Shown one piece after another: positions 2,575 to 18,154 of a DNA stretch of 32,025 bases (position 1 is the first letter of the stretch; every line of letters starts with the position of its first letter). The stretch is from a virus: positions 1 through 32,025 of the IMG/VR virus record IMGVR_UViG_3300010885_073568, one strand, 5' to 3'. The translations under genes and the position numbers were made by a program. A model generated the notes under the pieces. It was not told the DNA's origin and searched no databases. It was given only the letters and a program-made list of their open reading frames with translations.

Positions 2575-4500
2575 ATGGCACTATCAAATTTTACAAATCT
2601 GGATTTCGACCAGATAAAGACAAATATAAAAGATTACTTAAAAGCCAATTCAGATTTTACTGATTATGACTTTGAAGGATCCAACCTTTCATCAATTCTT
2701 GATGTCTTAGCATACAATACGTACATTACCTCATATAATGCCAACATGGTGGCAAATGAGGCATTTATTGATAGTGCAACTCTTAGAGAAAACGTCGTTG
2801 CTCTTGCAAGAAACATTGGTTATGTTCCCAAATCAAAGAGAGCATCAAGAGCAACCGTAAGTTTCTTTGTAGATACCTCAAATATTACTCCAGCACCAGC
2901 AACTTTAACTCTTCAAAGAGGTCCTGTAGCGACAAGTAATGGTGCATTTGGAAATCAATCCTTTGTATTTTCAATTTTAGACGATATTACAGTACCAGTT
3001 TACAATAATATTGCATCATTTAATGAAATTGAGATTTATGAAGGTATTTTGCTAACAAATACTTTTGATTATAATCTAAGAAATCCATATCAAAAGTTTG
3101 TTCTTCCAAATTCCGGAATTGATACTACATTAATGTCTGTAGTTGTAAGAAATAGTCAACAATCTTCAATTTCAGTCAAATATAATCTTCAGGATAGTTT
3201 ATTTGATATTAATGGTTCTTCAAAGGTGTATTTTATTCAAGAAATTGAGGATGAAAGATATGAATTGATATTTGGTGATGGAGTTTTTGGAGCATCTCTT
3301 TTAGATGGAAGTTTTATTTCTGCATCATATATTGTTACTAATGGTGATGCAGCAAACGGAATAAATCAATTTGCATTTTCTGGTAGAATTGTATATATCA
3401 GAAACTCCAATGAATACGTAGTCTCTTCGGGAATTTCATTAATATCTACTGGACTTGTTGCAAATGGCGGAGAAAATATTGAGTCTGTAGAATCCATTAG
3501 AAAATATGCACCAAGAATCTATGCGTCTCAAAATAGAGCTTTAACAGTTAATGACTATGAAACCTTGATTCCAGAAAAAATTTATCCAGAAACAGAATCA
3601 ATATCAGTATTTGGTGGTGAAGAATTAATTCCACCTCAATATGGAAAGGTCTTTATTAGTATTAAACCAAGAAGTGGGGATTTTCTTCCCAATGTGATAA
3701 AAGAAAATATAAAAATGCGATTGAAAAAGTATGCAGTTGCAGGAATTGTTCCTGAAATTTTAGATCTTAAATATCTTTACTTGGAAATTGATTCAAAAAT
3801 CTACTATAATTCAAACTTAGCACCCAGTTCTACATACGTTTCTTCAATTATTCAAGATAATGCAAATAAATATGCAGAATCTAGTGAGTTAAATAAGTAT
3901 GGAGCAAGATTCAAATATAGTAAATTTTTGAAAGTTCTTGATGATAGTCATGAATCAGTTACTTCTAATATTACAACTCTTCAAATGAGAAGAGATCTGA
4001 GAGTATCAATTAACTCAATAGCAGAATATTCTATTGGATTTGGAAATGAGTTTCATATTAAAAGTATGAACGGTTATAACATAAAAACAACTGCATTTAA
4101 GGTAAGTGGACTTATAAATGATGTTTACCTTTCAGATGTTCCAGATACAAATAGAACAACCGGTTCTTTGTTCCTATTCACTGTTCCAACAGTTTTTTCT
4201 ACTACACCCACAATTGTTAAGAGAAATGTTGGAAAAATTGACTATAAGAAAGGAATTCTTACATTATATCCAATTAGCATTTCATCTGCAAAAATAAAGG
4301 ACGGACAATCAATTCTTGAAATCTCTGCATCTCCACAATCAAATGATGTGATAGGATTGCAAGACTTATATCTACAATTAGATATTAGTAAAAGCAATTT
4401 TGAAATGGTTATTGACGAGGTTTCATCTGGGTTGGATCCATCAGCATCAAACTATATCGTAACTTCAAGCTATTCAAACGGAAATTTAGTAAGATCATAA
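2575..4500 (+). CDS. gp6: gp6-like baseplate wedge protein
   Basis: The 641-aa product is close in size to T4 gp6 (660 aa). The N-terminal block DYDFEGSNLSSILDVLAYNT (residues about 27-46) corresponds to the DYDFEGSRL...LLAYNT block I remember in T4 gp6. Further shared blocks are the LRENVV...NIGYVP segment, the FGDGVFGASL beta region and the TVNDYETLIPEKI segment before the C-terminal dimerisation part. gp6 dimers link wedges into the hexagonal baseplate. The ATG directly abuts the gp25 TAA and there is no separate promoter, so the two are co-transcribed and probably coupled in translation. Confidence 0.92.
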   Translation: MALSNFTNLDFDQIKTNIKDYLKANSDFTDYDFEGSNLSSILDVLAYNTYITSYNANMVANEAFIDSATLRENVVALARNIGYVPKSKRASRATVSFFVDTSNITPAPATLTLQRGPVATSNGAFGNQSFVFSILDDITVPVYNNIASFNEIEIYEGILLTNTFDYNLRNPYQKFVLPNSGIDTTLMSVVVRNSQQSSISVKYNLQDSLFDINGSSKVYFIQEIEDERYELIFGDGVFGASLLDGSFISASYIVTNGDAANGINQFAFSGRIVYIRNSNEYVVSSGISLISTGLVANGGENIESVESIRKYAPRIYASQNRALTVNDYETLIPEKIYPETESISVFGGEELIPPQYGKVFISIKPRSGDFLPNVIKENIKMRLKKYAVAGIVPEILDLKYLYLEIDSKIYYNSNLAPSSTYVSSIIQDNANKYAESSELNKYGARFKYSKFLKVLDDSHESVTSNITTLQMRRDLRVSINSIAEYSIGFGNEFHIKSMNGYNIKTTAFKVSGLINDVYLSDVPDTNRTTGSLFLFTVPTVFSTTPTIVKRNVGKIDYKKGILTLYPISISSAKIKDGQSILEISASPQSNDVIGLQDLYLQLDISKSNFEMVIDEVSSGLDPSASNYIVTSSYSNGNLVRS

Positions 4501-4504
4501 TAAC

Positions 4505-7500
4505 ATGGTAGAAAAGAGAATTAAAATCAGCAACGTTGTAAAGAATCAACTACCTTCTTATGTGAGGGAGGAATTTCCGTTAGTTTCTGAATTTTTATCA
4601 CAATACTATTTGTCTCAGGAATTTAAGGGAGCTCCTGCAGATCTAATTCAAAATATTGATCAATATATCAAAATAGATGAGAGCAGCAGAACTCCTGAAT
4701 CAGTTATCCTTGCATCCAATATATCATTTGTTGATACAACCATCTACATTGAATCACTATATGGTACAAGAGGATTCCCAGATTCTTATGGAATCTTACA
4801 AATTGATGATGAAATTATTACCTACACAGGAAAAACTTTCGACTCCTTTACTGGATGTATAAGAGGATTTTCTGCAATAACATCATTAAAGGGCAATAAT
4901 GATTTAAATCAATTAGTATTCAAAGATACCGATTCTCAAGAACATGCTGCGGGAGCAGTTATTCTCAATCTAAGTGACTTATTTTTAAAAGAATTTCTAT
5001 TAAAAACAAAATATCAGATTCTTCCTGGTTTCCAAGATAGAATTCTATACAGTGAACTAAACCAATCACTTTTCATAAAACAAGCAAAAGACTTCTATAA
5101 TAGCAAAGGAACTGATAAATCTTTTTCTATCCTATTTGGTGCTTTGTACGGAGAGGAAGTAGAAATCATTAGACCAAAAGATTTTCTATTGAAACCATCA
5201 AATGCTAATTGGAAAAATACTTTAGATTTAGTTGTAGAAAGTATTTCTGGCAATCCTATCGATATTCAGGATTCTACCTTAAGGCAGGATACGTATAAGA
5301 ATATATCAAAAGCACGTGCTCCAATATCAAAAGTAGAATTAATAAGTTCAAATGGCAATAATGAATATTATAGACTAAGTTTGGATTCTGGATATAATAG
5401 AGATCTGGAGTTTAATGGGGCTGTTTATGGAGAATTTTCGGTACACCCAAGAACTTATTTGATTGGAAACTCGAATTCAAATGCATCAACATTGGATGTT
5501 GATTCTACAATAGGATTTCCGGAATATGGAGATCTTAGAGTTACTTATGATGATGCAACAGTAGGGACAATATCATATACTTCAAAATCAATAAATCAAT
5601 TTTTTGGATGTTCTGGAATAGTAGGAATAATTCCCGATGCATCTCCAATCGATATCGATACTTATGCATATGCACCATCATTTAAAAATCCAAGTGAAAC
5701 AGTTAAGTTAAGAATAACTTCTGTTTTGAATGATATTGTAATTGATAGACAAACTTACAATTATGGAGTAGATGATGAAATTAAAATAATAACTCTTGGC
5801 AAAAAATCCAATAATTACGGTAAAAACAATTGGTTCTTCAATACCGCACAGAGTTATGAAGTAAAGTCATTATCACTTGTTGATGCTTCTGATATGACAT
5901 ATTCAATTTTATTGAATGTTACACATTCTTTAAGAATTGGAGATAAAATACTGCTATCAGACGATTCTGGATTAGAAAAGCAATCTATAGTTTCTTCAGT
6001 CTTATCTGAGAAAAGTTTTACTGTTAAGGGACAGGGAGAATTATCACTTTCCAGAATTTATACTATTCGGAGATCTATTTTAAAGGTAGAATCTCAAATT
6101 TACCCAGAACTTTCTAATGTATGTGCCAATATACAGAATGTCTATGAATATAAGAGAAAAGTGTTGGCATCTACAAACTCTCTTCCATATTATTACAACC
6201 AACCAATTAATGCCACAGATAGATCTATAGTATTTTCTGGCAATTTTATTGGATCTGAATTTGAAATAACTACAAATTCAGATCATGGATTTTATAGTGG
6301 GGAATGTGTATACTATACACCAGAGAAGTATGGAGAAAGTTTAGCAGTTTATTCTTCACTATTCAGTGAAGGGATATACTATATTAAAAGAGTGAGTTCA
6401 ACCAAGGTCAAATTTGCAAGAAGCAAATCTGATTTATACAATTCAAAGTTTGTATCATTAGACAACTTAACACCAGTAAATAATAACAAAATTGAATATT
6501 TTAAATTTAAAGGAAAAAAACTTACTCCACAAAAGATTTTTAGAGAGATTTCTGAACCCATAGCATCTGATAAAGTCAATGCCACAAATACTGGATCGAC
6601 TGGTATTTTTATCAATGGTGTCGAACTTCAAAATTACAAATCAACAGATGTAATTAATTATGGAAAACTTGAAAAGGTTGATATTATTGCATCTGGATCA
6701 GATTGGGATATTATTAATCCACCAAAGTTAATCATTGACGATTTAGTTGGAGTAGGTGCTACTGGTTATTGTTCTGTTAAAGGATCACTTTCAAAAATTC
6801 AGATTGTAGATCCTGGTTTTGGATATTCTGAAATGCCATCAATAAAAATAACTGGTGGTAATGGGTATGGAGCAGTTGTAGAACCAGTTCTAACTTTAGT
6901 AAAGCATAGTGCTACATTTAATTCAGAATTGACATCAAATTTGGTTGGAATCGGAACAACTCAATCTACTATTGAATTTTCAACATATCACAAATTTACT
7001 ACTTCTGAAAGAGTATTATATAAAACTAATGGACAAAAAGCAATTAGTGGTTTGACGACAAATTCTGAATATTATGTTTCAGTAAAAACTCCATATAGAA
7101 TAACTTTACATAAAAATATTGAAGATTCAATATCGGGCATAAACACAATTACCTTACTTTCATACGGAATAGGTAATCATGAAATTGAAGCATTTACTAA
7201 GAAAAATATTATTTCTTCAGTTAATGTAAAAAATTCTGGAAGTGGTTATGAAAATAAGAAAAGAACCGTTTCGGTAAGTGGAATTAGTACGGCTTCCGAT
7301 ACTATTAATATTACAAATCATAATTATTCTGATGGAGAAATTGTATATTATTCAACATTAGGGACGCCAATTGGTGGGTTGACTAATGGCACAGAGTATT
7401 ATGTTACTTTTATTGATAATGATAATTTCAAGTTATCAAATGTTGGAATTGCATCAACCTTAAAGGATTATTATTACACAACAAAACAATACATTAAATT

Positions 7501-10500
7501 AACTTCTACTGGGTCCGGAATCCATGAATTTAATTATCCAGAAATTAAAGTTGAGATAGAAGGAAAAATTGGCATTTCTTCAGTTTCTCAAGATTATTTT
7601 TCAGCAGAAGTGCAACCTATTTTTAGAGGAGAAATAACTTCTGTTCATTTATCCAATAATGGAGTTGGGTATGGATCTTCCGAAGTTATTAACTTTGACA
7701 GACAACCAACTTTTGAATTAATTTCTGGGTCAGATTGTCAACTAACTCCTGTAGTGTCAAATGGGAAGATTATCGAAGTTTTAATCAATTCAAAAGGAAA
7801 AAATTATAATTCTCCACCAGAACTTGCGATTATTGGTTCTGGAGTTGGTGCTGTCCTGACTCCAATCATATCAAATGGAGAAGTAGTTTCTGTTAAGGTT
7901 ATTCAGGGTGGAATTGGTTATATCCAAGGATCTGCATTTATAACAGTTACTCCATCCGGAGCAAGATCATCTACATCTTTTAGAGCAAAAATAACATCTT
8001 GGAGAGTAAATCTCTTTGAAAAATATTTCAATTCAATTTCAAATGATGATGGATTTTTAGCAGAATCACTGGACCAAAAATCTGGATTAAAATATACCCA
8101 TTTATATGCTCCAAGAAAATTAAGAGAAATTATATATTCTTCAGACCAATCGGGAAAAGTTTTATTTGGCAAGTATGATCTCAAAAAAGCAAGGAATACT
8201 GAAGTAACCTCAACAGATCATTCACCAATTATTGGTTGGGCTTATGATGGGCATCCAATTTATGGTCCATATGGATATACCAATAAATCAGGTGGTAGTG
8301 TACTGCAGATGAAATCTGGGTACAAGTTAGATCTAAAGAGTAATCGTCCACCTCTAAGTATTTTCCCTGAAGGATTTTTTATTGAAGATTATACATATAA
8401 AAAAATTAGCGATGAAGATGTATTGGATGAAAAAAATGGAAGATTCTGTGTAACACCAGAGTTCCCACAAGGAACGTATGCATATTTTTCAACTTTCAAT
8501 ACACTTCCAGATTCTTCAGGAAAATTCCTTGGATATAAAAGACCAACCTTCCCATATGTAATTGGTGATTCTTATAATTCAGAACCAAATGAATTCAACT
8601 TCAAATCAACTTCAAACCAAGAAGACTTTGATCTTAATACTAATACTTGGTTAAGGAATACCTCCACATATAATTTACTGGAAGGGACTGTTGATTACAA
8701 ATATTTGCAAATACCAAATAAACTAAATCAAACTTCAAAAATTAAGTACGTTTCTTCTGGGTCAATAGAATCTGTAGGTATTTTTACTGGAGGTAGAGAT
8801 TATAAGGTTGGAGATAGGATTAAATTTGACAATACTGGAACAGATGGATTTGGAGCAGAAGCAACAGTTTCCAGTTTGGAAGGTAAGAAGGTAGATTCTA
8901 TTAGTGTAGCATCAACTTCTATTAGTAATTTTGAGATATCTGTAGGGACAGATAGAGGAGAATTTTTACTTTTTTCCAACTATAATCATAACTTTAAAAA
9001 TAACGATATTGTAAGAATATCTGGGATGAATACGTCATCATCTCTGATAGAAGGTTCTTATAGAGTGGGCGTATCATCAAATACTCTATATTTAAAATCT
9101 GGAGTTGGAACTGCAGGATACACTGGAATTGTTACATATTTTACTGTATTTGGCAACCTCAACTATCCGTATGTAAAAGTTAATGATGTATTGAGTATTG
9201 GTACTGAGAATGTAAAGGTATTAAAAGTTCATAAGGAGTTCTCAAGTATTAGAGTTTTAAGGCAAACTGAAGGCACTGTTGGAATATCACATACTGCATC
9301 CGAAGTCCTTTATGAAAATTCAAGAAAATTATCAATAAACGTTGGATATAACACAACATTTGATTATAAGTTAAATAAAGAAATTTATTTTTATCCCCAA
9401 GAATCTGTTGGTGTTGGTACACGATCAGGAGTTGGTATTGGATCAACACTTAGAACTTACAGTCCTGTTGGAATTGTAACTATCTTTGTACCAACAAAAT
9501 CGATTCTGTTGCCATCCCACGGACTAAAGACTGGAGATCAAATTACATATTATACCAATAGTGGATCGCCAATTGGAGTGTCTACAAATGGAATCTCCAC
9601 TTCTCTATCGTTGTCAAATGGATCTACGTTATATGTTGCCAAATTAACGGACGATTTAATTGGTATTGCAACAGTTAAAGTTGGACTTGGTTCAACAGGA
9701 ACTTTTGTTGGGATTAATAGTACCACTTCTAACACAAGTACATTATTCTTTACTGGAATTGGAACAGGTTCTTATCACAGCTTTAAAACAAACTACCAAA
9801 AACTTACCGCAAATGCAACTAAGAATGTAGTAACTGTAAGTACAGCAGAAACTCATGGATTGTCAATTTATGACAAGGTAACTGTCAACATTAATCCTAA
9901 TGCAAATATAACGTACATTATTGCATATGATGATTATCACAGAAAGATGTTGGTTAATCCCAAATCTTTTTCATCTGTAGGGATAACAACATCGACAGGA
10001 AATATTAATATACCTAACCATGGGTTTGTTAGAGGTCAAAAAGTTCTTCACACTTCAAATTCTCCTGCAATTGGATTATTGAATGAAAAGTTCTATTATA
10101 TAATAGATGTTGATTCTGATAATATTAAACTTTCGGAAAATTACTATGATTCGTTAAGCACAAATCCATCTATTGTCGGCATTTCCAGTGCTTCTAATGG
10201 AATTTTATCTGCAATAAATCCTCCAATTAAAGCATATAAGGATTCTACTGTAGTATTTGACGTATCAGACTCTTCTTTATCATATATTAAGCAATCATCA
10301 AATTATTCTGCATTCAAATTAGAATTTTTTACAGATTCAAATTTTAAAGATGTTTTTGAAAAAACAGAACTTAATACAACTTTTGAAATTGAAAGATCTG
10401 GAAAGGTTGGAATATCATCTAATGCAAAAGTTACTCTAAAAGTCAATAAGTATTTTCCACAAAAATTATATTATAAATTAATTCCAGTATATGAAAGTGA

Positions 10501-13500
10501 TCTACCGACAGAAAAAGTAGAAATTTCTATTGATACAAGCATCGATGGATATGGAAGTATTTCTATTGACAATAGTTTATATAATGGAACTCATACTGTA
10601 AAATCATCCTCAAATACATTATTTACTTATGATTTGGAAGTATTGCCCGAATCAGTTTCTTATGCATCATCAACATCCGATCTCAGGTATACCACAACTT
10701 CAACAACTGCCACTGGACCAATTGATAATGTAGAAATTAATAGTCGTGGTAAAAACTATTACTCACTACCAACAATATACTCAATAAATTCTGGAATTGG
10801 CACTGAAGCATTGCTTGATGTCAAAAGTACTTCCATTGGAAAGATTGAAAGAACCAAAATTGTTGATATTGGATTTGATTTTTCTTCTGATAAGACAGTT
10901 AGACCAACTGCGATTTTACCACAAATTATAAAAATTGACTCTTTAGCATCTTTTGAATCTATTGGAATCAGTTCATTTGGTAAAGGTTACAATTCACCTC
11001 CAAAGTTGTTAGTATTTGATGGAAAAACAAACAAATTGGTTCCAGAAGCTGACATTCGATATAATTTAGGAGATATAAATGTAAAAATTTATAAAAATGT
11101 TGATGGAATTAATGGCATAACTCCAATTATTTTGCCAACACAAAATACTAATGGTGTTGGAATATCATCAATTTCATATGATTCAGTAACAAATAATGTT
11201 ACAGTAACACTTTCCGTTGGATTTAGCACTACAAATTCATTCCCATTTGAAGTTGGTGATAAGGTTCTTATTGAGAATATAGGCGTAGGGATAAACTCCG
11301 AAGGTAAAGGATATAATTCGGAAAATTATGACTATAAATTATTCATAATCAATAACGTTGATGCAAATATTGGAGGAATAGGTACAGTTTCTTATAGTTT
11401 GTCCGGACTTCTAAATTCCTCAGAATATCCAGGAATTCATGATATTGAAAATTCTGTTGGTAGAATTATCCCACAAAAGCATTTTCCAATTTTTAATCCT
11501 GTCCTAAAGAAAAATGATTATAAGACGGGTGAAATTGTTGAATCAGGCACATCAACAGGAATTGTAGAAAATTGGGATCCAAATACAAATTATTTAAGAG
11601 TTTCTACTAAGGATGAATTCAAAGTTGGAGAAACTATTGTTGGAAAGGGAAGTAAAACTATTGGAATTGCCTCTTCAACAACTCCATTTATCACAAGTTA
11701 CGTAGTTGAAGCATATTCGGACGTTACTTCTGGTTGGAATTCTGATAGTGGATTTTTGAATAATAATTTACAAAGATTGCATGATAATGAATACTATCAA
11801 AATTTCTCATATTCAATTAAATCCAAGGTGGATTATGATACTTGGAAAGATGCAGTGAGTTCTTTGAATCATGCGGCTGGGTTTAGAAAATTTGCAGATT
11901 TGCAAATTGAATCTAAATTGGAAGATGGTTTAGAAAATTCATTAGTAGTAGGTCTTTCAACACAGTCTACTTCATTTGAAGTTATCAATGACATCATTGG
12001 GTTTGCAAATCTCAATTGTGTATATGATTTTGATCTTGTAAAAGAAAATTCATTGAAAGTTGCACCTAATATAATTTCAAATGAGATTACTTTTACAAAC
12101 AGAGTTTTGAGTGATTACTTGGAGTCTGTTGGCAATAGAGTTCTTACTATTGATGATATTTCACAATATTTCAATAGCAACCCAAGACCAAGTAAATTTA
12201 GTGCAGCAAAAAGATTTTATCTATCTGATGCAAGGGCACAAAAATACATCGTTTATGTAAGAGATAAAAGGTATTTGGATAGACGACAGATAATGCTCGT
12301 TTCCCTACTTCATGATAATAGTTTTGGATTTATTAGTCAATATGGGAGAGTGGAAAGTGAAAAAGATTTAGGATCTTTTGACTTCGTTATTGAAGGAATT
12401 GAAGGTATACTTACATTCTATCCAAATTTTTATTCAGTAAATGATTATGATATTACAACTCTTTCATATAACATTCATGACGATTTAATTGCAACTGGAG
12501 AAGTACTAAATTGTGGAGGAGTTGTTGAAGTTGATAGCACTTCATCAGTTATTAGTATTGGATCCACAAACTTAATTTCTATTCCAAACACGTTTAGATC
12601 TATTAAAGTTTTTACTGAAATTATTTCAGACAATAATGAATATCAATCAGATGAACTATTAATTATTCACGATGGTAATGATGTTGACTATATTGAATAT
12701 GGGCAATTATCTACAACTTCTCTCGATACTTATGGAAATTCCGGTTTTGGTACTTATTATCCAAAACTGAGTGGATCTCAAATAAAACTTGATTTTGTAC
12801 CAAGGGTTGGTGTTGCAGCGACAGTAAATACAATTTATATCGCATTAAAGGACGAATCTTCGTCAGGTATTGGTACTGTTGAACTGAAGCATTCTCTTTT
12901 AGAGGGAAGATCTACATCTATTGCATCAACTGTATCACCAGTTCCGGTAGTAATTTCAGATTATATTGATAACTATGACGGTGCATATGCAATAGTTCAA
13001 GTTTCGGATATTACAAATAATAAACATTTTGTCTCCGAAGTTACTTTAGTTGATGACGATAATGAAGTGTATCTTTCGGAGTTTACATTTAGTGATGGTT
13101 CTGGGATAGGAACTATTGGAGCTCAAAGGAATTCAAAAACGCAATTGATATTTACTCCAAATCCAAATATCAATGTTAATGTAAAGGTATTTCTCAATGC
13201 ACTTAGATATGAAGATGATGAGCGTGACTCTATTTCTATTGATAATACAACAATTGAAACGTCTTATGGGCAATATTTTGGAACTGAGAGAGAGATTAAA
13301 AAATCTTTTGAAATTTATCATAAAAATTATAAAATATTTGAGAGAGATTTTGATGGTAGCAATTCCTCAGTAGTTGATATTTCAGAAAACACAATTCAAA
13401 TTCCAAACCATTTCTTTGTTAGTGGCGAAAAATTAATCTATAGTCATTCTGGTGCAGGAAGTACGCAAGCAATTGGAATTGCAGCAACTAATTTTGTAGG

Positions 13501-16500
13501 AATTGGAGTAACAACAAAATTACCCTCAGATGTATATGCTGTTAAGGTAAATGAAAATATTATTAAACTTGCAAGAAGTGCAGAAGATTCTCTTCTAAAT
13601 GTACCAAAAGTTATTAATATAACAAATGTTGGAATAGGTACATCCCACACACTTACTGCAACTAATCAAAATGCAAGAGTAATTATTGCCATAGACAATA
13701 TTATCCAATCTCCAATTGTATCGACCGCACTAACAAGTTCATTGTCAGTAAATCTTTTTAGCACTGATGACGTTCTTTACTTCAATTCTGGCATTTCATC
13801 TTTCTTTGGTGGAGATTTAATTAAAATTGGCGATGAAATTATGAAGATTTCATCTGTTGGTGTTGGAAGTACGAATGCAATTAGAGTTCAAAGACCTTGG
13901 TTAGGAACAAATGCTTCGGCATATTCTAACAATACTTTAGTCACCAAAGTTACTGGAAATTTTAATATTATAAAAAATACTCTCAATTTTGTTGAGGCAC
14001 CTTATGGAAGACTTCCATTTAGCAGTTCAACGAATGCTGCAGATGACATAGATTGGAGTGGAATATCTACCAGTTCTAATTTCCAAGGAAGAACATTCCT
14101 GAGGTCAGGTTCTCCAAATTCATCTTATGAAACTTATTCCAGAAATTACATTTTTGATGATATATCAACACAATTTAACGGATCAGAAAGAAACTTTAAT
14201 TTAAAATCAAATTCTTCCAATATCACCGGAATTTCATCAGAAAAAGCAATCATTCTTATTAATGATGTATTCCAAGGTCCAGGATTAACATATGATTATA
14301 CATTAAACGAAACTACTGGAATTACATCAATTAGATTTACTGGAACTGCAACATCATTTAGATCTGATGTCAATACATCAAATCTGCCAATTGGAGGAGT
14401 AATCATATCCGTAGGTTCATCGCAGGGATTTGGTTATCAACCATTGGTTTCTGCTGGAGGAACTGCAATTGTGTCTATAGCAGGCACAATTTCTTCTATT
14501 AGTATTGGAAATAGTGGTTCTGGATACCGAAGTGGGTCTCAGATTGTCAGAGTTGGTGTAGGAACTTCCTCAACGGGTACTCCAAAAATTGAATTTATTG
14601 GAACAGCAGTCGTAAGTAATGGTCGAGTTGTAAGTGTTGCAATTACAAACCCAGGATCTGGATATACTTCAACAAAAGCACCATATGTTGTAATTGATGA
14701 TCCACTTTCATATTCAGATATTCCACTGAAGTATACATCTTCCTCATCCGGTTTTGGAACAGAAGCAACGGTTGATGTTGTCGTTGGTTCTGGTTCAAGT
14801 ATTATTGAATTTGAATTCAAAAATAATGGATATGGATATGGTCAGGGAGATATCTTAACAATTCCTATTGGCGGCATAACCGGAATTCCTACTACATCTG
14901 GGTATAAAGAATTCCAAGTTACAGTCCAAAAAACTTTCTCAGATAAATTTACTGGATGGTCTCTTGGAGAATTGCAAATCTTAGACAATCTAAATGAACT
15001 ATTTGATGGAGAAAGGGTTGTATTTCCACTCAAACTTTCCAAAAATTTCATAACTATCAGATCAGCAAGAGGATCCAATGTTAATATTGAAGACACTCTT
15101 CTAATATTCATTAATGACATTCTCCAAGTTCCAGGAAAGGCATATAAATTCCCAGGTGGTAGTACCATAACATTTACTGAAGCTCCCAAGGAAGGAGATA
15201 CATCAAAAATTATTTTCTATAAAGGAAGTGGTGTAATTGATGTTATTGATAAAAATATTATGGAAACAGTCAAGGTAGGAGATGAACTGACAATATCATA
15301 TGATCCATCAATAGGACAGCAATCAATTTTACAGGAAAATGAAAGAACGGTAAGTAGCATAAATTCTACAGATATTGTCAACACAAACCCATACTTTGGT
15401 CCAGGAAATATTGAGGATAATACCTTAGTTAGACCAGTTGTGTGGTGCAGACAAACTGAAGATAAGATTATTGATGGATTGGAGGTTGGAAAGGATAGGA
15501 TTATCTATGAACCAATTATTAGTCCATTTGCATATATTATTAAGTCTGTTGGAATTGGATCTACAACCATATATGTTGATAATATAAGACCATTCTTTAA
15601 TCCACAAAATGAAAATGATGTTACATTAGAATTCCAGAAGAAAATTACCATTACATCTCAGGATACAAAAATCTCTGCTGCTGCAACAGCATTGGTATCA
15701 ACTGCAGGAACAATCCACTCAATTTCATTAAATGATGGTGGTATTGGTTACGATACTTCCCCAATAGTTACCATTCAAAATCCAGTGGGTCTTGGAACGA
15801 CTCAGAGGGCAACAGCAGTAGCATCAATATCTCCAGTTACTGGAATTATCACATCATTAGTTGTTACTGGACCAGGAACTGGATACCTACAATCAAAACC
15901 ACCGGTTATTCTCATTGAACCACCGACCCTCTCGGAAGAAATTAATATTGTCAATGAGTACAAAGGTGATTCCGGAGTAATTGTTGGATTTGGAATTACA
16001 ACTACAGTTGGTCTTGAGAATAAAATCATATTTGATTTACATATTCCAACAGATTCATATTTAAGATCCACAAATGTCACAGGAATTGCAGTAACTCTCA
16101 GTTCTTTGAGTCGGGGAGATTACTTCGTTGTTTACAATTCAAATGTTGGTTCATCATCAACGGCAATATATTCTGGAAATCTTGACGGTGGATTTGTTGC
16201 AATTGGAACTCAATTTGTAGATAATGTATATCAAGTTGATACTTCAGAATTAGTTACTGCAAATGTAACTGGGATTGGAACAACTATCTTTAGAAGAGTA
16301 TTTGCTAAAATTATTGGAATTTCTTCTTTAACATTCAGTTCCACATATGTTACCTTTGATTCAAGTATCATCAAATTTGATTCTGCAGTTGGTGTGGGAT
16401 CAACTTCATACAGTGGAACTATTACTAAATCAAATTATTTTGGAAACTTTAGTTGGGGAAGAATTTCTATCCCATACAGAAGTGGTGAAAATAATTTTAA

Positions 16501-16591
16501 TTTCTATGGAACAAATGGAGTTGGAGGTATTTCATCTTCATCTATAGTTAGAAGAACCAATCCACTAAAATATACCAGTTACATTCAATAA
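4505..16591 (+). CDS. giant (4028 aa) gp7-like baseplate wedge protein with YHYH domain and many repeated modules
   Basis: This is one uninterrupted frame, about 38% of the window. Residues 10-60 and 160-225 look like a core wedge domain; FYNSKG (197-202) and LYGEEVEI (214-221) match FYSTKG and LYNEEVEI in the C-terminal part of T4 gp7 (1032 aa). A second gp7-like block, YYQNFSYSIKSKV then W2447 and HAAGF (ending 2460), lies about 2200 residues later; in T4 the two are about 100 apart. Between and after them are a YHYH-type region (about 1190-1380; GHPIYGPYGY at 1249-1258), about six modules with HGF...YYV...IKL signatures, several runs of GSGY beta repeats and modules ending in an RG..GT-like turn. 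The C-terminus (SWGRISIPY...NPLKYTSYIQ) resembles other cyanophage virion proteins. gp7-like wedge initiator is my best call; position after gp25-gp6 fits. It starts four bases after the gp6 stop. Confidence 0.75.
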   Translation: MVEKRIKISNVVKNQLPSYVREEFPLVSEFLSQYYLSQEFKGAPADLIQNIDQYIKIDESSRTPESVILASNISFVDTTIYIESLYGTRGFPDSYGILQIDDEIITYTGKTFDSFTGCIRGFSAITSLKGNNDLNQLVFKDTDSQEHAAGAVILNLSDLFLKEFLLKTKYQILPGFQDRILYSELNQSLFIKQAKDFYNSKGTDKSFSILFGALYGEEVEIIRPKDFLLKPSNANWKNTLDLVVESISGNPIDIQDSTLRQDTYKNISKARAPISKVELISSNGNNEYYRLSLDSGYNRDLEFNGAVYGEFSVHPRTYLIGNSNSNASTLDVDSTIGFPEYGDLRVTYDDATVGTISYTSKSINQFFGCSGIVGIIPDASPIDIDTYAYAPSFKNPSETVKLRITSVLNDIVIDRQTYNYGVDDEIKIITLGKKSNNYGKNNWFFNTAQSYEVKSLSLVDASDMTYSILLNVTHSLRIGDKILLSDDSGLEKQSIVSSVLSEKSFTVKGQGELSLSRIYTIRRSILKVESQIYPELSNVCANIQNVYEYKRKVLASTNSLPYYYNQPINATDRSIVFSGNFIGSEFEITTNSDHGFYSGECVYYTPEKYGESLAVYSSLFSEGIYYIKRVSSTKVKFARSKSDLYNSKFVSLDNLTPVNNNKIEYFKFKGKKLTPQKIFREISEPIASDKVNATNTGSTGIFINGVELQNYKSTDVINYGKLEKVDIIASGSDWDIINPPKLIIDDLVGVGATGYCSVKGSLSKIQIVDPGFGYSEMPSIKITGGNGYGAVVEPVLTLVKHSATFNSELTSNLVGIGTTQSTIEFSTYHKFTTSERVLYKTNGQKAISGLTTNSEYYVSVKTPYRITLHKNIEDSISGINTITLLSYGIGNHEIEAFTKKNIISSVNVKNSGSGYENKKRTVSVSGISTASDTINITNHNYSDGEIVYYSTLGTPIGGLTNGTEYYVTFIDNDNFKLSNVGIASTLKDYYYTTKQYIKLTSTGSGIHEFNYPEIKVEIEGKIGISSVSQDYFSAEVQPIFRGEITSVHLSNNGVGYGSSEVINFDRQPTFELISGSDCQLTPVVSNGKIIEVLINSKGKNYNSPPELAIIGSGVGAVLTPIISNGEVVSVKVIQGGIGYIQGSAFITVTPSGARSSTSFRAKITSWRVNLFEKYFNSISNDDGFLAESLDQKSGLKYTHLYAPRKLREIIYSSDQSGKVLFGKYDLKKARNTEVTSTDHSPIIGWAYDGHPIYGPYGYTNKSGGSVLQMKSGYKLDLKSNRPPLSIFPEGFFIEDYTYKKISDEDVLDEKNGRFCVTPEFPQGTYAYFSTFNTLPDSSGKFLGYKRPTFPYVIGDSYNSEPNEFNFKSTSNQEDFDLNTNTWLRNTSTYNLLEGTVDYKYLQIPNKLNQTSKIKYVSSGSIESVGIFTGGRDYKVGDRIKFDNTGTDGFGAEATVSSLEGKKVDSISVASTSISNFEISVGTDRGEFLLFSNYNHNFKNNDIVRISGMNTSSSLIEGSYRVGVSSNTLYLKSGVGTAGYTGIVTYFTVFGNLNYPYVKVNDVLSIGTENVKVLKVHKEFSSIRVLRQTEGTVGISHTASEVLYENSRKLSINVGYNTTFDYKLNKEIYFYPQESVGVGTRSGVGIGSTLRTYSPVGIVTIFVPTKSILLPSHGLKTGDQITYYTNSGSPIGVSTNGISTSLSLSNGSTLYVAKLTDDLIGIATVKVGLGSTGTFVGINSTTSNTSTLFFTGIGTGSYHSFKTNYQKLTANATKNVVTVSTAETHGLSIYDKVTVNINPNANITYIIAYDDYHRKMLVNPKSFSSVGITTSTGNINIPNHGFVRGQKVLHTSNSPAIGLLNEKFYYIIDVDSDNIKLSENYYDSLSTNPSIVGISSASNGILSAINPPIKAYKDSTVVFDVSDSSLSYIKQSSNYSAFKLEFFTDSNFKDVFEKTELNTTFEIERSGKVGISSNAKVTLKVNKYFPQKLYYKLIPVYESDLPTEKVEISIDTSIDGYGSISIDNSLYNGTHTVKSSSNTLFTYDLEVLPESVSYASSTSDLRYTTTSTTATGPIDNVEINSRGKNYYSLPTIYSINSGIGTEALLDVKSTSIGKIERTKIVDIGFDFSSDKTVRPTAILPQIIKIDSLASFESIGISSFGKGYNSPPKLLVFDGKTNKLVPEADIRYNLGDINVKIYKNVDGINGITPIILPTQNTNGVGISSISYDSVTNNVTVTLSVGFSTTNSFPFEVGDKVLIENIGVGINSEGKGYNSENYDYKLFIINNVDANIGGIGTVSYSLSGLLNSSEYPGIHDIENSVGRIIPQKHFPIFNPVLKKNDYKTGEIVESGTSTGIVENWDPNTNYLRVSTKDEFKVGETIVGKGSKTIGIASSTTPFITSYVVEAYSDVTSGWNSDSGFLNNNLQRLHDNEYYQNFSYSIKSKVDYDTWKDAVSSLNHAAGFRKFADLQIESKLEDGLENSLVVGLSTQSTSFEVINDIIGFANLNCVYDFDLVKENSLKVAPNIISNEITFTNRVLSDYLESVGNRVLTIDDISQYFNSNPRPSKFSAAKRFYLSDARAQKYIVYVRDKRYLDRRQIMLVSLLHDNSFGFISQYGRVESEKDLGSFDFVIEGIEGILTFYPNFYSVNDYDITTLSYNIHDDLIATGEVLNCGGVVEVDSTSSVISIGSTNLISIPNTFRSIKVFTEIISDNNEYQSDELLIIHDGNDVDYIEYGQLSTTSLDTYGNSGFGTYYPKLSGSQIKLDFVPRVGVAATVNTIYIALKDESSSGIGTVELKHSLLEGRSTSIASTVSPVPVVISDYIDNYDGAYAIVQVSDITNNKHFVSEVTLVDDDNEVYLSEFTFSDGSGIGTIGAQRNSKTQLIFTPNPNINVNVKVFLNALRYEDDERDSISIDNTTIETSYGQYFGTEREIKKSFEIYHKNYKIFERDFDGSNSSVVDISENTIQIPNHFFVSGEKLIYSHSGAGSTQAIGIAATNFVGIGVTTKLPSDVYAVKVNENIIKLARSAEDSLLNVPKVINITNVGIGTSHTLTATNQNARVIIAIDNIIQSPIVSTALTSSLSVNLFSTDDVLYFNSGISSFFGGDLIKIGDEIMKISSVGVGSTNAIRVQRPWLGTNASAYSNNTLVTKVTGNFNIIKNTLNFVEAPYGRLPFSSSTNAADDIDWSGISTSSNFQGRTFLRSGSPNSSYETYSRNYIFDDISTQFNGSERNFNLKSNSSNITGISSEKAIILINDVFQGPGLTYDYTLNETTGITSIRFTGTATSFRSDVNTSNLPIGGVIISVGSSQGFGYQPLVSAGGTAIVSIAGTISSISIGNSGSGYRSGSQIVRVGVGTSSTGTPKIEFIGTAVVSNGRVVSVAITNPGSGYTSTKAPYVVIDDPLSYSDIPLKYTSSSSGFGTEATVDVVVGSGSSIIEFEFKNNGYGYGQGDILTIPIGGITGIPTTSGYKEFQVTVQKTFSDKFTGWSLGELQILDNLNELFDGERVVFPLKLSKNFITIRSARGSNVNIEDTLLIFINDILQVPGKAYKFPGGSTITFTEAPKEGDTSKIIFYKGSGVIDVIDKNIMETVKVGDELTISYDPSIGQQSILQENERTVSSINSTDIVNTNPYFGPGNIEDNTLVRPVVWCRQTEDKIIDGLEVGKDRIIYEPIISPFAYIIKSVGIGSTTIYVDNIRPFFNPQNENDVTLEFQKKITITSQDTKISAAATALVSTAGTIHSISLNDGGIGYDTSPIVTIQNPVGLGTTQRATAVASISPVTGIITSLVVTGPGTGYLQSKPPVILIEPPTLSEEINIVNEYKGDSGVIVGFGITTTVGLENKIIFDLHIPTDSYLRSTNVTGIAVTLSSLSRGDYFVVYNSNVGSSSTAIYSGNLDGGFVAIGTQFVDNVYQVDTSELVTANVTGIGTTIFRRVFAKIIGISSLTFSSTYVTFDSSIIKFDSAVGVGSTSYSGTITKSNYFGNFSWGRISIPYRSGENNFNFYGTNGVGGISSSSIVRRTNPLKYTSYIQ

Positions 16592-16594
16592 ATA
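16587..16594 (+). promoter_or_regulatory. possible late promoter (AATAAATA) for the fibre-like gene
   Basis: AATAAATA matches seven of eight consensus bases and contains the TAA stop (16589-16591) of the giant gene. The next ATG is 18 bases beyond its end. The same octamer also occurs inside gp6 at 3865-3872, so the sequence alone is not specific; position is the main support. Confidence 0.42.
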
Positions 16595-16612
16595 CTTAAA
16601 AACTTTTTAAAA

Positions 16613-18121
16613 ATGGCAAAGTTAGGAATAAGCACTGGAACTATTCCAAATGATGGGACGGGTGATAGCCTTCTTGTTGCAGGTGTTAAGATCAATAGCA
16701 ACTTTGCTGAGTTATACACTTTACTTGGCAATGGTACGAATTTATCTGCAGGAATTGTAACATCAATTGTTGCTGGTACTGGAATTACCATTTCCGGATC
16801 AACTGGAATAGTAACCATACAGGTTGAGCCATCTATTTCCGGTACTGCTGGAACGTGGGCAACTACTGCGGTAGGTATTCACACACTAAAAAATGTTGGG
16901 ATAGGTACTACAAATCCAACACAAAAACTTTCTGTTACCGGAAACGTTTATATTAGTGAATTTGTTGGAGTTGGAACTGCAAGTCCGAGTTATCCTCTGC
17001 ACATAAGATCAAATCCAGGAACAACTGAACCATCAATTTCCATTATTCCAAATAATTCAACAAGACCAGCAACTATTAGACTTTCAAATAATAGTGCATC
17101 CAAGTTTGTTTTAGGTTTACAAAATTCATCTGGAAATAGTGATCTTAGCACATTTCCAGCATATGCCGGTGTTGTTGGATTAACATCAACAAATCCTCTA
17201 ATTTTTGTAACAAACAGCATTGAAGGATTTAGACTGTCCGAGAATGGAAATCTTGGTCTCAATAGAACCACTCCAACATCAAAACTTGATGTATTTGGAG
17301 ACGCCAAGATTAGTGGCATAGTTACAGCTGCTGGGTTTGTTGGATCTGGTGTTGGTTTAACTGGTGTAAGTGCAAATTATACCAATACTGCAGGTATAGC
17401 AACTTATGCACCTAATGCTGGTATTTCTACTTATTCCACTAATTCCGGTATAGCAACTTATGCCACAATTGCTGGATATTCTACCTCCAGTGGTATTGCT
17501 ACTTATTCAACTAATTCTGGTATTGCTACCTATTCAACTAATTCTGGTATTGCTACCTATTCAACTAATTCTGGTATAGCAACTTATGCAACAATTGCCG
17601 GATACTCCACAAGTTCTGGTATATCAACAAATTCCACTTATGCCGGATATGCAACTACTGCTGGAATTTCTACCATAGCGCAAAATCTCACTGGAAATCC
17701 TAATATTACAGTTTCCTCCATTAATTCTTCCGGGATTGCCACGATTGGCATTCTTACCGCAACATCTTTATATGGAGATGCTTCATATACAGTTAGTGGT
17801 AAATGGACTGTTACTGGAGATGGTTACGATTTCTTCTTTACGGGTATTGGATTTACAAATCCATCAGGAACTGCTGATCCAGTATTATATTTGGCAAGAG
17901 GTCTTACATATCATATTGTAAATAGCACTCCAGATCATCCATTCGAAATTAGAAATCAAAATAATGGAACTTCATATAATAATGGAGTAGTAGGAAACGG
18001 TCAAACCATGACAACAATCAAATTTACAGTTCCATTTAATGCACCAAACACACTTTATTACCAATGTCCGGATCATACTGGAATGGGAAATACCATCAGA
18101 ATTTATCCAGATCTTATTTGA
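16613..18121 (+). CDS. tail-fibre-like virion protein with tandem repeats and C-terminal cupredoxin-like domain
   Basis: The 502-aa product has three parts. The N-terminus (ISTGTIPNDGTGDSL...KINSNFAELY, residues 6-36) is an attachment-like segment common in marine phage fibres. The middle carries fibre-type VGIGTTNPTQKLSV and LGLNRTTPTSKLDVFG motifs and then a 9/6-residue repeat array (about 261-350). The C-terminal 105 residues form a beta domain with DHPFEI (His442) and YYQCPDHTGM (Cys485, His488, Met491), the ligand pattern of a type-1 copper site with the C-x2-H-x2-M spacing of amicyanin. It lies between baseplate genes and probably decorates the baseplate or forms a short fibre. Receptor binding and copper binding are both inferred. 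Confidence 0.72.
   Translation: MAKLGISTGTIPNDGTGDSLLVAGVKINSNFAELYTLLGNGTNLSAGIVTSIVAGTGITISGSTGIVTIQVEPSISGTAGTWATTAVGIHTLKNVGIGTTNPTQKLSVTGNVYISEFVGVGTASPSYPLHIRSNPGTTEPSISIIPNNSTRPATIRLSNNSASKFVLGLQNSSGNSDLSTFPAYAGVVGLTSTNPLIFVTNSIEGFRLSENGNLGLNRTTPTSKLDVFGDAKISGIVTAAGFVGSGVGLTGVSANYTNTAGIATYAPNAGISTYSTNSGIATYATIAGYSTSSGIATYSTNSGIATYSTNSGIATYSTNSGIATYATIAGYSTSSGISTNSTYAGYATTAGISTIAQNLTGNPNITVSSINSSGIATIGILTATSLYGDASYTVSGKWTVTGDGYDFFFTGIGFTNPSGTADPVLYLARGLTYHIVNSTPDHPFEIRNQNNGTSYNNGVVGNGQTMTTIKFTVPFNAPNTLYYQCPDHTGMGNTIRIYPDLI
17393..17662 (+). repeat. in-frame tandem repeat, 27-base units alternating with 18-base units
   Basis: Three near-identical 27-base units (17492-17518, 17519-17545, 17546-17572), each encoding GIATYSTNS, sit in a longer degenerate array. 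The order is three 9-residue units, one 6-residue GYSTSS, four 9-residue units, GYSTSS, one 9-residue unit and GYATTA. Every unit is a multiple of three bases, so copy-number change keeps the fibre gene in frame and alters only shaft length. Confidence 0.85.
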
Positions 18122-18128
18122 GTTAACC

Positions 18129-18136
18129 TATAAATA
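18129..18136 (+). promoter_or_regulatory. T4-type late promoter for gp8
   Basis: This is a perfect TATAAATA 18 bases before the gp8 ATG. It lies eight bases after the stop of the fibre-like gene, and its TAA (18131-18133) is in frame with that gene. It probably drives gp8, the DUF4815-type gene and the two small genes that follow. Confidence 0.78.
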
Positions 18137-18154
18137 ATAAAAAAACTCTACAAA

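Follow-up and report, generated by a model that had tools for sequence, protein, structure and literature searches.

A cupredoxin-like domain with a predicted copper site at the C-terminus of a marine phage fibre protein

The fibre gene and its surroundings

The window, i.e. the entire stretch of viral DNA analysed here (32,025 bases), contains a block of structural genes with T4-like order: gp25, gp6, gp7, a fibre gene, gp8, a gene for a 2493-aa protein, and genes for Ad2 (head-tail adaptor), Hc2 (head closure), a sheath stabiliser and the small terminase subunit. Of these, gp7 was assigned by its position against the genome of Synechococcus phage S-SM2, whose gp6 protein is 72% identical to that of the window. 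The DNA appears to belong to a marine phage of the T4-like kind that has Synechococcus phages as relatives; the host is inferred in this way, the source being a virus contig of 32,025 bases.

The fibre gene (16613–18121, plus strand) codes for a protein of 502 amino acids that consists of three parts, all encoded on the plus strand. Residues 1–45 (16613–16747) form an anchor of the T4 gp9/gp10 type (Pfam T4_gp9_10_N, PF07880, 7.3e-07) with a predicted helix at residues 18–38. A variable, low-complexity shaft with tandem repeats of the 'SGIATYSTN' type follows (16748–17776), and its length among relatives ranges from 45 to 709 amino acids. The C-terminal domain, an independent β-sandwich supported by the AlphaFold2 (AF2) model, PDB fold matches and profile matches, comprises residues 389–502 (approximately 114 residues; about 17777–18118). 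The initial annotation, which had placed a fibre domain with an intact type 1 copper ligand set at 17795–18118, was thus right about the presence of the domain and set its start slightly too late.

The entire protein matches phrog_677 ('baseplate wedge tail fiber protein connector') with an E value of 5.1e-34 over profile positions 1–410 of 412, and the C-terminal domain by itself matches positions 308–410. This full-length match makes the protein a member of the gp9-like connectors of cyanophages, with which it forms one family over nearly its full length and whose annotation mentions neither a copper site nor a cupredoxin fold. Likeness to gp9 and gp10 of T4 itself is confined to the N-terminal anchor, and no relationship of the C-terminal domain to any T4 part was found.

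Predicted fold and the four candidate ligands

The AF2 model of the C-terminal domain, built on 42 sequences from the window and viral contigs, has a pLDDT of 94.1 and a pTM of 0.86. It comprises eight strands and, together with its fold matches, corresponds to the eight-stranded Greek-key β-sandwich of type 1 copper cupredoxins. The full-length model is weak, with a pLDDT of 44 overall, below 50 in the shaft and about 50–54 in the N-terminal helix. The best 50 PDB fold matches of the domain model are cupredoxin-fold or copper proteins, among them nitrite reductase, rusticyanin, AcoP, CuA subunits, laccases, amicyanin and pseudoazurin, plus EfeO, an entry named metal-binding. Copper nitrite reductase 6tfo ranks first, and TM-scores to solved cupredoxins are modest (0.37–0.57; rmsd 3–11 Å). 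The cupredoxin-like β scaffold proposed in the initial annotation is supported at the level of structure prediction.

The predicted copper ligands are His442 in an HPF motif (17936–17938), Cys485 as the thiolate ligand (18065–18067), His488 in C-x2-H (18074–18076) and Met491 as the axial ligand in H-x2-M (18083–18085), all encoded on the plus strand. Codons and translation place these residues, and the peptides DHPFEI and YYQCPDHTGM, exactly where they had been described. In the model (domain numbering), the first histidine lies in the loop preceding strand 56–59, the cysteine follows strand 92–96, and the methionine stands directly ahead of strand 104–110. This order of strands and ligands is that of plastocyanin and amicyanin. 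In the model the ligands thus occupy the canonical strand positions, which agrees with the in-register alignment to plastocyanin 2plt described below. Positions and register together served as an indirect check on the clustering of the four residues.

Conservation of the ligands was assessed in three sets of sequences. An alignment of the window domain with 18 relatives, selected among phage-genome and viral-contig copies that have the motif, has eight invariant columns, all four ligands among them. Among 128 copies found by profile in all fetched loci, the first histidine is present in 127 of 127, and cysteine, second histidine and methionine are each present in 122 of 122; well-populated invariant columns are only five, namely the four ligands and the tyrosine of Y-x-C. 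Part of the loci behind these copies had been fetched using patterns that include the cysteine or a histidine, and the position of Met491 was absent from all seed patterns. The search was repeated with the N-terminal half of the domain only, a query that is free of ligands. It returned 80 loci, 79 of which contain a complete domain, the remaining one stopping at a contig edge. All four ligands are kept in each of the 79 complete domains, so that the wide substitution in homologs that would have spoken against the site is not seen. Each of these domains has exactly one cysteine. An internal disulfide therefore cannot account for the conservation of the cysteine, and we reject such a role of Cys485.

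The C-x2-H-x2-M spacing is that of amicyanin, as initially proposed, in 121 of 122 copies. The sole loop-length variant (C-x4-H-x2-M) occurs in a protein encoded at 2945–5779 of a locus from Rhodobacteraceae bacterium SB2 (L113). The residue that follows the first histidine is proline in 123 of 127 copies. Classical type 1 sites usually have asparagine there, although this is not strictly defining, since rusticyanin has serine. None of 122 copies matches the PROSITE blue-copper signature PS00196. In seven loci (L004, L005, L007, L009, L010, L013 and L018), the baseplate-wedge gene that comes next downstream of gp9 also has a motif of the type HP/HG...Y-[FYH]-C-x2-H-x2-M; several of these have a long insertion, and profile support is weak and split.

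Relationship to known copper proteins

The cupredoxin relationship is visible only through family profiles, as the window domain alone had no significant match in Pfam, NCBIfam or a single-sequence PDB search. With a diverse family profile, the best PDB match was copper nitrite reductase 6hbe (1.2e-5), and plastocyanin (3.2e-4) and amicyanin (3.6e-4) were also found. All four ligands align with those of plastocyanin 2plt, including the ligand histidine that corresponds to His442 and, in register, His488. In the amicyanin alignment the C-x2-H-x2-M loop is in register and the first histidine is out of register. A more uniform profile reached copper proteins only at E values of 0.03–0.05, with BTK domains at 0.08. 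Given this borderline result, the sequence link to copper proteins rests on the diverse profile. Neither the alignment behind that profile nor one of the N-terminal half was well enough conserved at any stretch to serve for scanning contigs. Copper nitrite reductase provides both the best sequence-profile match and the best fold match, yet the phage domain shows no evidence of a type 2 site or of a catalytic partner domain.

With the amicyanin, plastocyanin and pseudoazurin family (PF00127, Copper-bind) the phage domain has in common the strand order, the four-ligand set and a Y-x-C strand that leads into the ligand loop; with amicyanin it also shares the spacing of this loop. By contrast, those proteins are free soluble carriers, whereas the phage domain is part of a fibre, has proline after the first histidine and, in its window copy, does not match PF00127. 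Weak matches to PF00127 were obtained for 21 of 42 relatives (best 8.9e-05). Nothing in the window domain exceeded the curated cut-off, and one relative scored as a whole protein (L102) reached 18 bits against a cut-off of 21.2. The closest curated relative is probably the At5g54830-like domain (PF25489), named for a plant protein, to which 16 of 42 phage members match below an E value of 0.1 (best 5e-4). The window domain itself has no match to PF25489. A relative from a planctomycete-labelled bin (L115) passes the cut-off with 1.4e-12 and has the H...C-x2-H-x2-M set. A description of a plastocyanin-like domain was sought in papers on Knickkopf and Skeletor and was not found there.

Distribution and modular exchange of the domain

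As the initial annotation had supposed, the domain is common in marine phages: 321 phage records match at E≤1e-3, almost all of them Synechococcus or Prochlorococcus phages or cyanophages. P-SSM2 has four profile matches, the podovirus P-GSP1 also has the domain, and Pelagibacter phage HTVC028P gives a weaker tblastn match and a clear profile match. Genomes with the labels Rhodobacteraceae, Bacteroidetes and Planctomycetota have it as well. Bacterial genome collections contain it in phage-like contigs and in secreted-looking proteins that also have FG-GAP domains, collagen domains, or an RTX domain together with an M64 peptidase domain; bins may include viral contigs, and a cellular origin of the bacterial copies is likely, though not necessarily for every one. 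No match among plasmids was obtained with the planctomycete-labelled relative. Matches in a viral structure library include tail fibres, proteins with subtilase, S74 or YHYH domains, and giant-virus β-sandwich proteins. The matches from BFVD, A0A481YY19 and A0A481Z6J5 among them, include 'beta-sandwich proteins' of Marseillevirus LCMAC and Pithovirus LCPAC. A YHYH-domain phage protein is thus among the library matches to the cupredoxin-like model, and the 4028-aa protein in the gp7 position of the window (4505–16591) has a YHYH domain at residues 1233–1331 (PF14240, 2.2e-23). Among 122 copies, 86 lie at the C-terminal end of their protein, and the other 36 sit inside a protein or are followed by further sequence. 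The domain is a mobile module, shared by numerous structural proteins of marine phages and by certain bacterial proteins of the secreted type. The tie to photosynthetic hosts that use plastocyanin, suggested at the outset, does not hold up in view of the diverse kinds of proteins and of genomes in which the domain occurs; its restriction to such hosts is ruled out by the pelagiphage and bacterial-genome copies.

Among 45 proteins that combine a gp9/10-type anchor with the C-terminal domain (990 pairs, with close relatives retained), two sequences are on average 60% identical in the first 45 residues, 24% in the shaft and 60.5% in the domain. Since the domain itself served to retrieve the loci, its conserved copies are favoured, and setting it against the anchor gives only a rough comparison. 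The end of a usual receptor-binding fibre is its most variable part. That the tip is here far more conserved than the shaft argues against a role in determining host range.

No gene occupies the slot between gp7 and gp8 (window 16592–18154) in S-SM2, Bellamy and SynMITS9220M01, and gp9-like fibres that differ in length and in end domain fill it in the window, RB11-B, P-TIM68 and S-B05. Over about 430 residues the fibres of RB11-B and S-B05 share approximately 89% identity, yet the domain stands at the end of the RB11-B fibre alone, which indicates that it is exchangeable. Both records name the same host, Synechococcus sp. MW02. Together with the conserved tip, this pair weakens the initial proposal of receptor recognition, in so far as a host-specific role is meant. 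Since both genomes hold another copy of the domain elsewhere, the pair is no proof that the domain as such is dispensable. The entire genomes of S-SM2 and SynMITS9220M01, however, contain no copy, and some phages of this kind thus manage without it. The S-B05 fibre that lacks the domain (L210, 6781–8157, minus strand) is annotated as 'unclassified head protein' despite its T4 gp9/10 anchor.

A predicted copper site on the virus particle

Taking into account these data, we propose that the gene located between gp7 and gp8 encodes an accessory, presumably trimeric fibre in which a conserved gp9/gp10-like anchor and a variable shaft would present a cupredoxin-like C-terminal end. The virus particle probably carries a copper site, and it is likely that the domain binds copper; with a complete type 1 ligand set of amicyanin spacing, one copper ion would most likely be bound. 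One point against this reading is that assembly in the cytoplasm leaves little free copper. Because the fibre is made in a copper-poor cytoplasm, the metal would probably be picked up following release from the cell. Once bound, it would hold the ligand loop in place and shield the lone cysteine. We somewhat favour the view that the domain, predicted to bind copper, is an exchangeable module for capping or adhesion whose ligand loop is stabilised by the metal. It would most likely have a generic partner or a structural role and be neither a determinant of host range nor an electron carrier.

That the domain is a metal-free adhesion domain, a plain β-sandwich derived from a cupredoxin whose ligand residues are kept for packing or hydrogen bonding, appears rather improbable to us. 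The fold does recur as an Ig-like building block in numerous structural proteins, and the classical asparagine after the histidine is missing; yet the four ligands are invariant even in distant copies while most positions drift, and, if no metal were bound, an unpaired, invariant cysteine on an extracellular part would be hard to explain. It is less probable still that the site is real and holds zinc, nickel, iron, cobalt or another spectroscopic class of copper for structural stabilisation only. The metal does not follow from the identity of the ligands alone, and phage tips with structural metals are known. Against this, cysteine, two histidines and methionine on a cupredoxin fold constitute the classical type 1 copper set, and copper proteins come out closest both by profile and by fold.

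A copper centre on the virion might also exchange electrons with a component of the host surface, or offer copper to it, and thereby trigger or ease entry, a role that we regard as distinctly unlikely. The ligand loop is as complete as in electron-transfer cupredoxins, and such a role would carry the Ferrojan Horse idea over to copper; for marine phages, entry mediated by a metal has been put forward (Bonnain 2016, as cited in PMC10892097). Neither a partner nor a redox gene was found beside the fibre gene, however, S-SM2 lacks the domain genome-wide and S-B05 lacks it on the fibre (with a copy elsewhere), and in PMC10892097 the tested host gave no support to the iron version as sole route. 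A role in electron transfer or as a copper decoy, though possible, is unsupported. Some cyanophages encode plastocyanin (petE; PMC2984593), and the tip might have arisen by recent capture of such a gene from host or phage. We reject this origin as most improbable since the profile scores alike for amicyanin, nitrite reductase and plastocyanin, the loop almost invariably has amicyanin-type spacing, and relatives occur outside cyanophages, in pelagiphage and bacterial genomes.

Returning to a predicted copper-binding cap, a search of the open-access literature, without subscription papers and preprints, brought up no account of a phage fibre that contains a cupredoxin; for a cyanophage cupredoxin, only the Borg paper matched there. 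The known petE genes of cyanophages (PMC2984593; PMC5083919) are separate metabolic genes, unlike the fibre domain.

Even if metal-free, the domain gives a structural identity to the end of a large family of 'baseplate wedge tail fiber connectors'. If copper is bound, hundreds of sequenced marine phages would carry a blue-copper-type domain on their particles. The biology of phage attachment would gain one more metal, part of a fibre would become accessible to spectroscopy, and the effect of scarce or excess copper in seawater on phage infection could be tested. It is conceivable, though in our estimation unlikely, that virions have true type 1 copper centres on their fibre ends that are loaded from the environment, and that copper binding or redox state controls attachment or entry; abundant marine phages would then have a copper-dependent step of infection.
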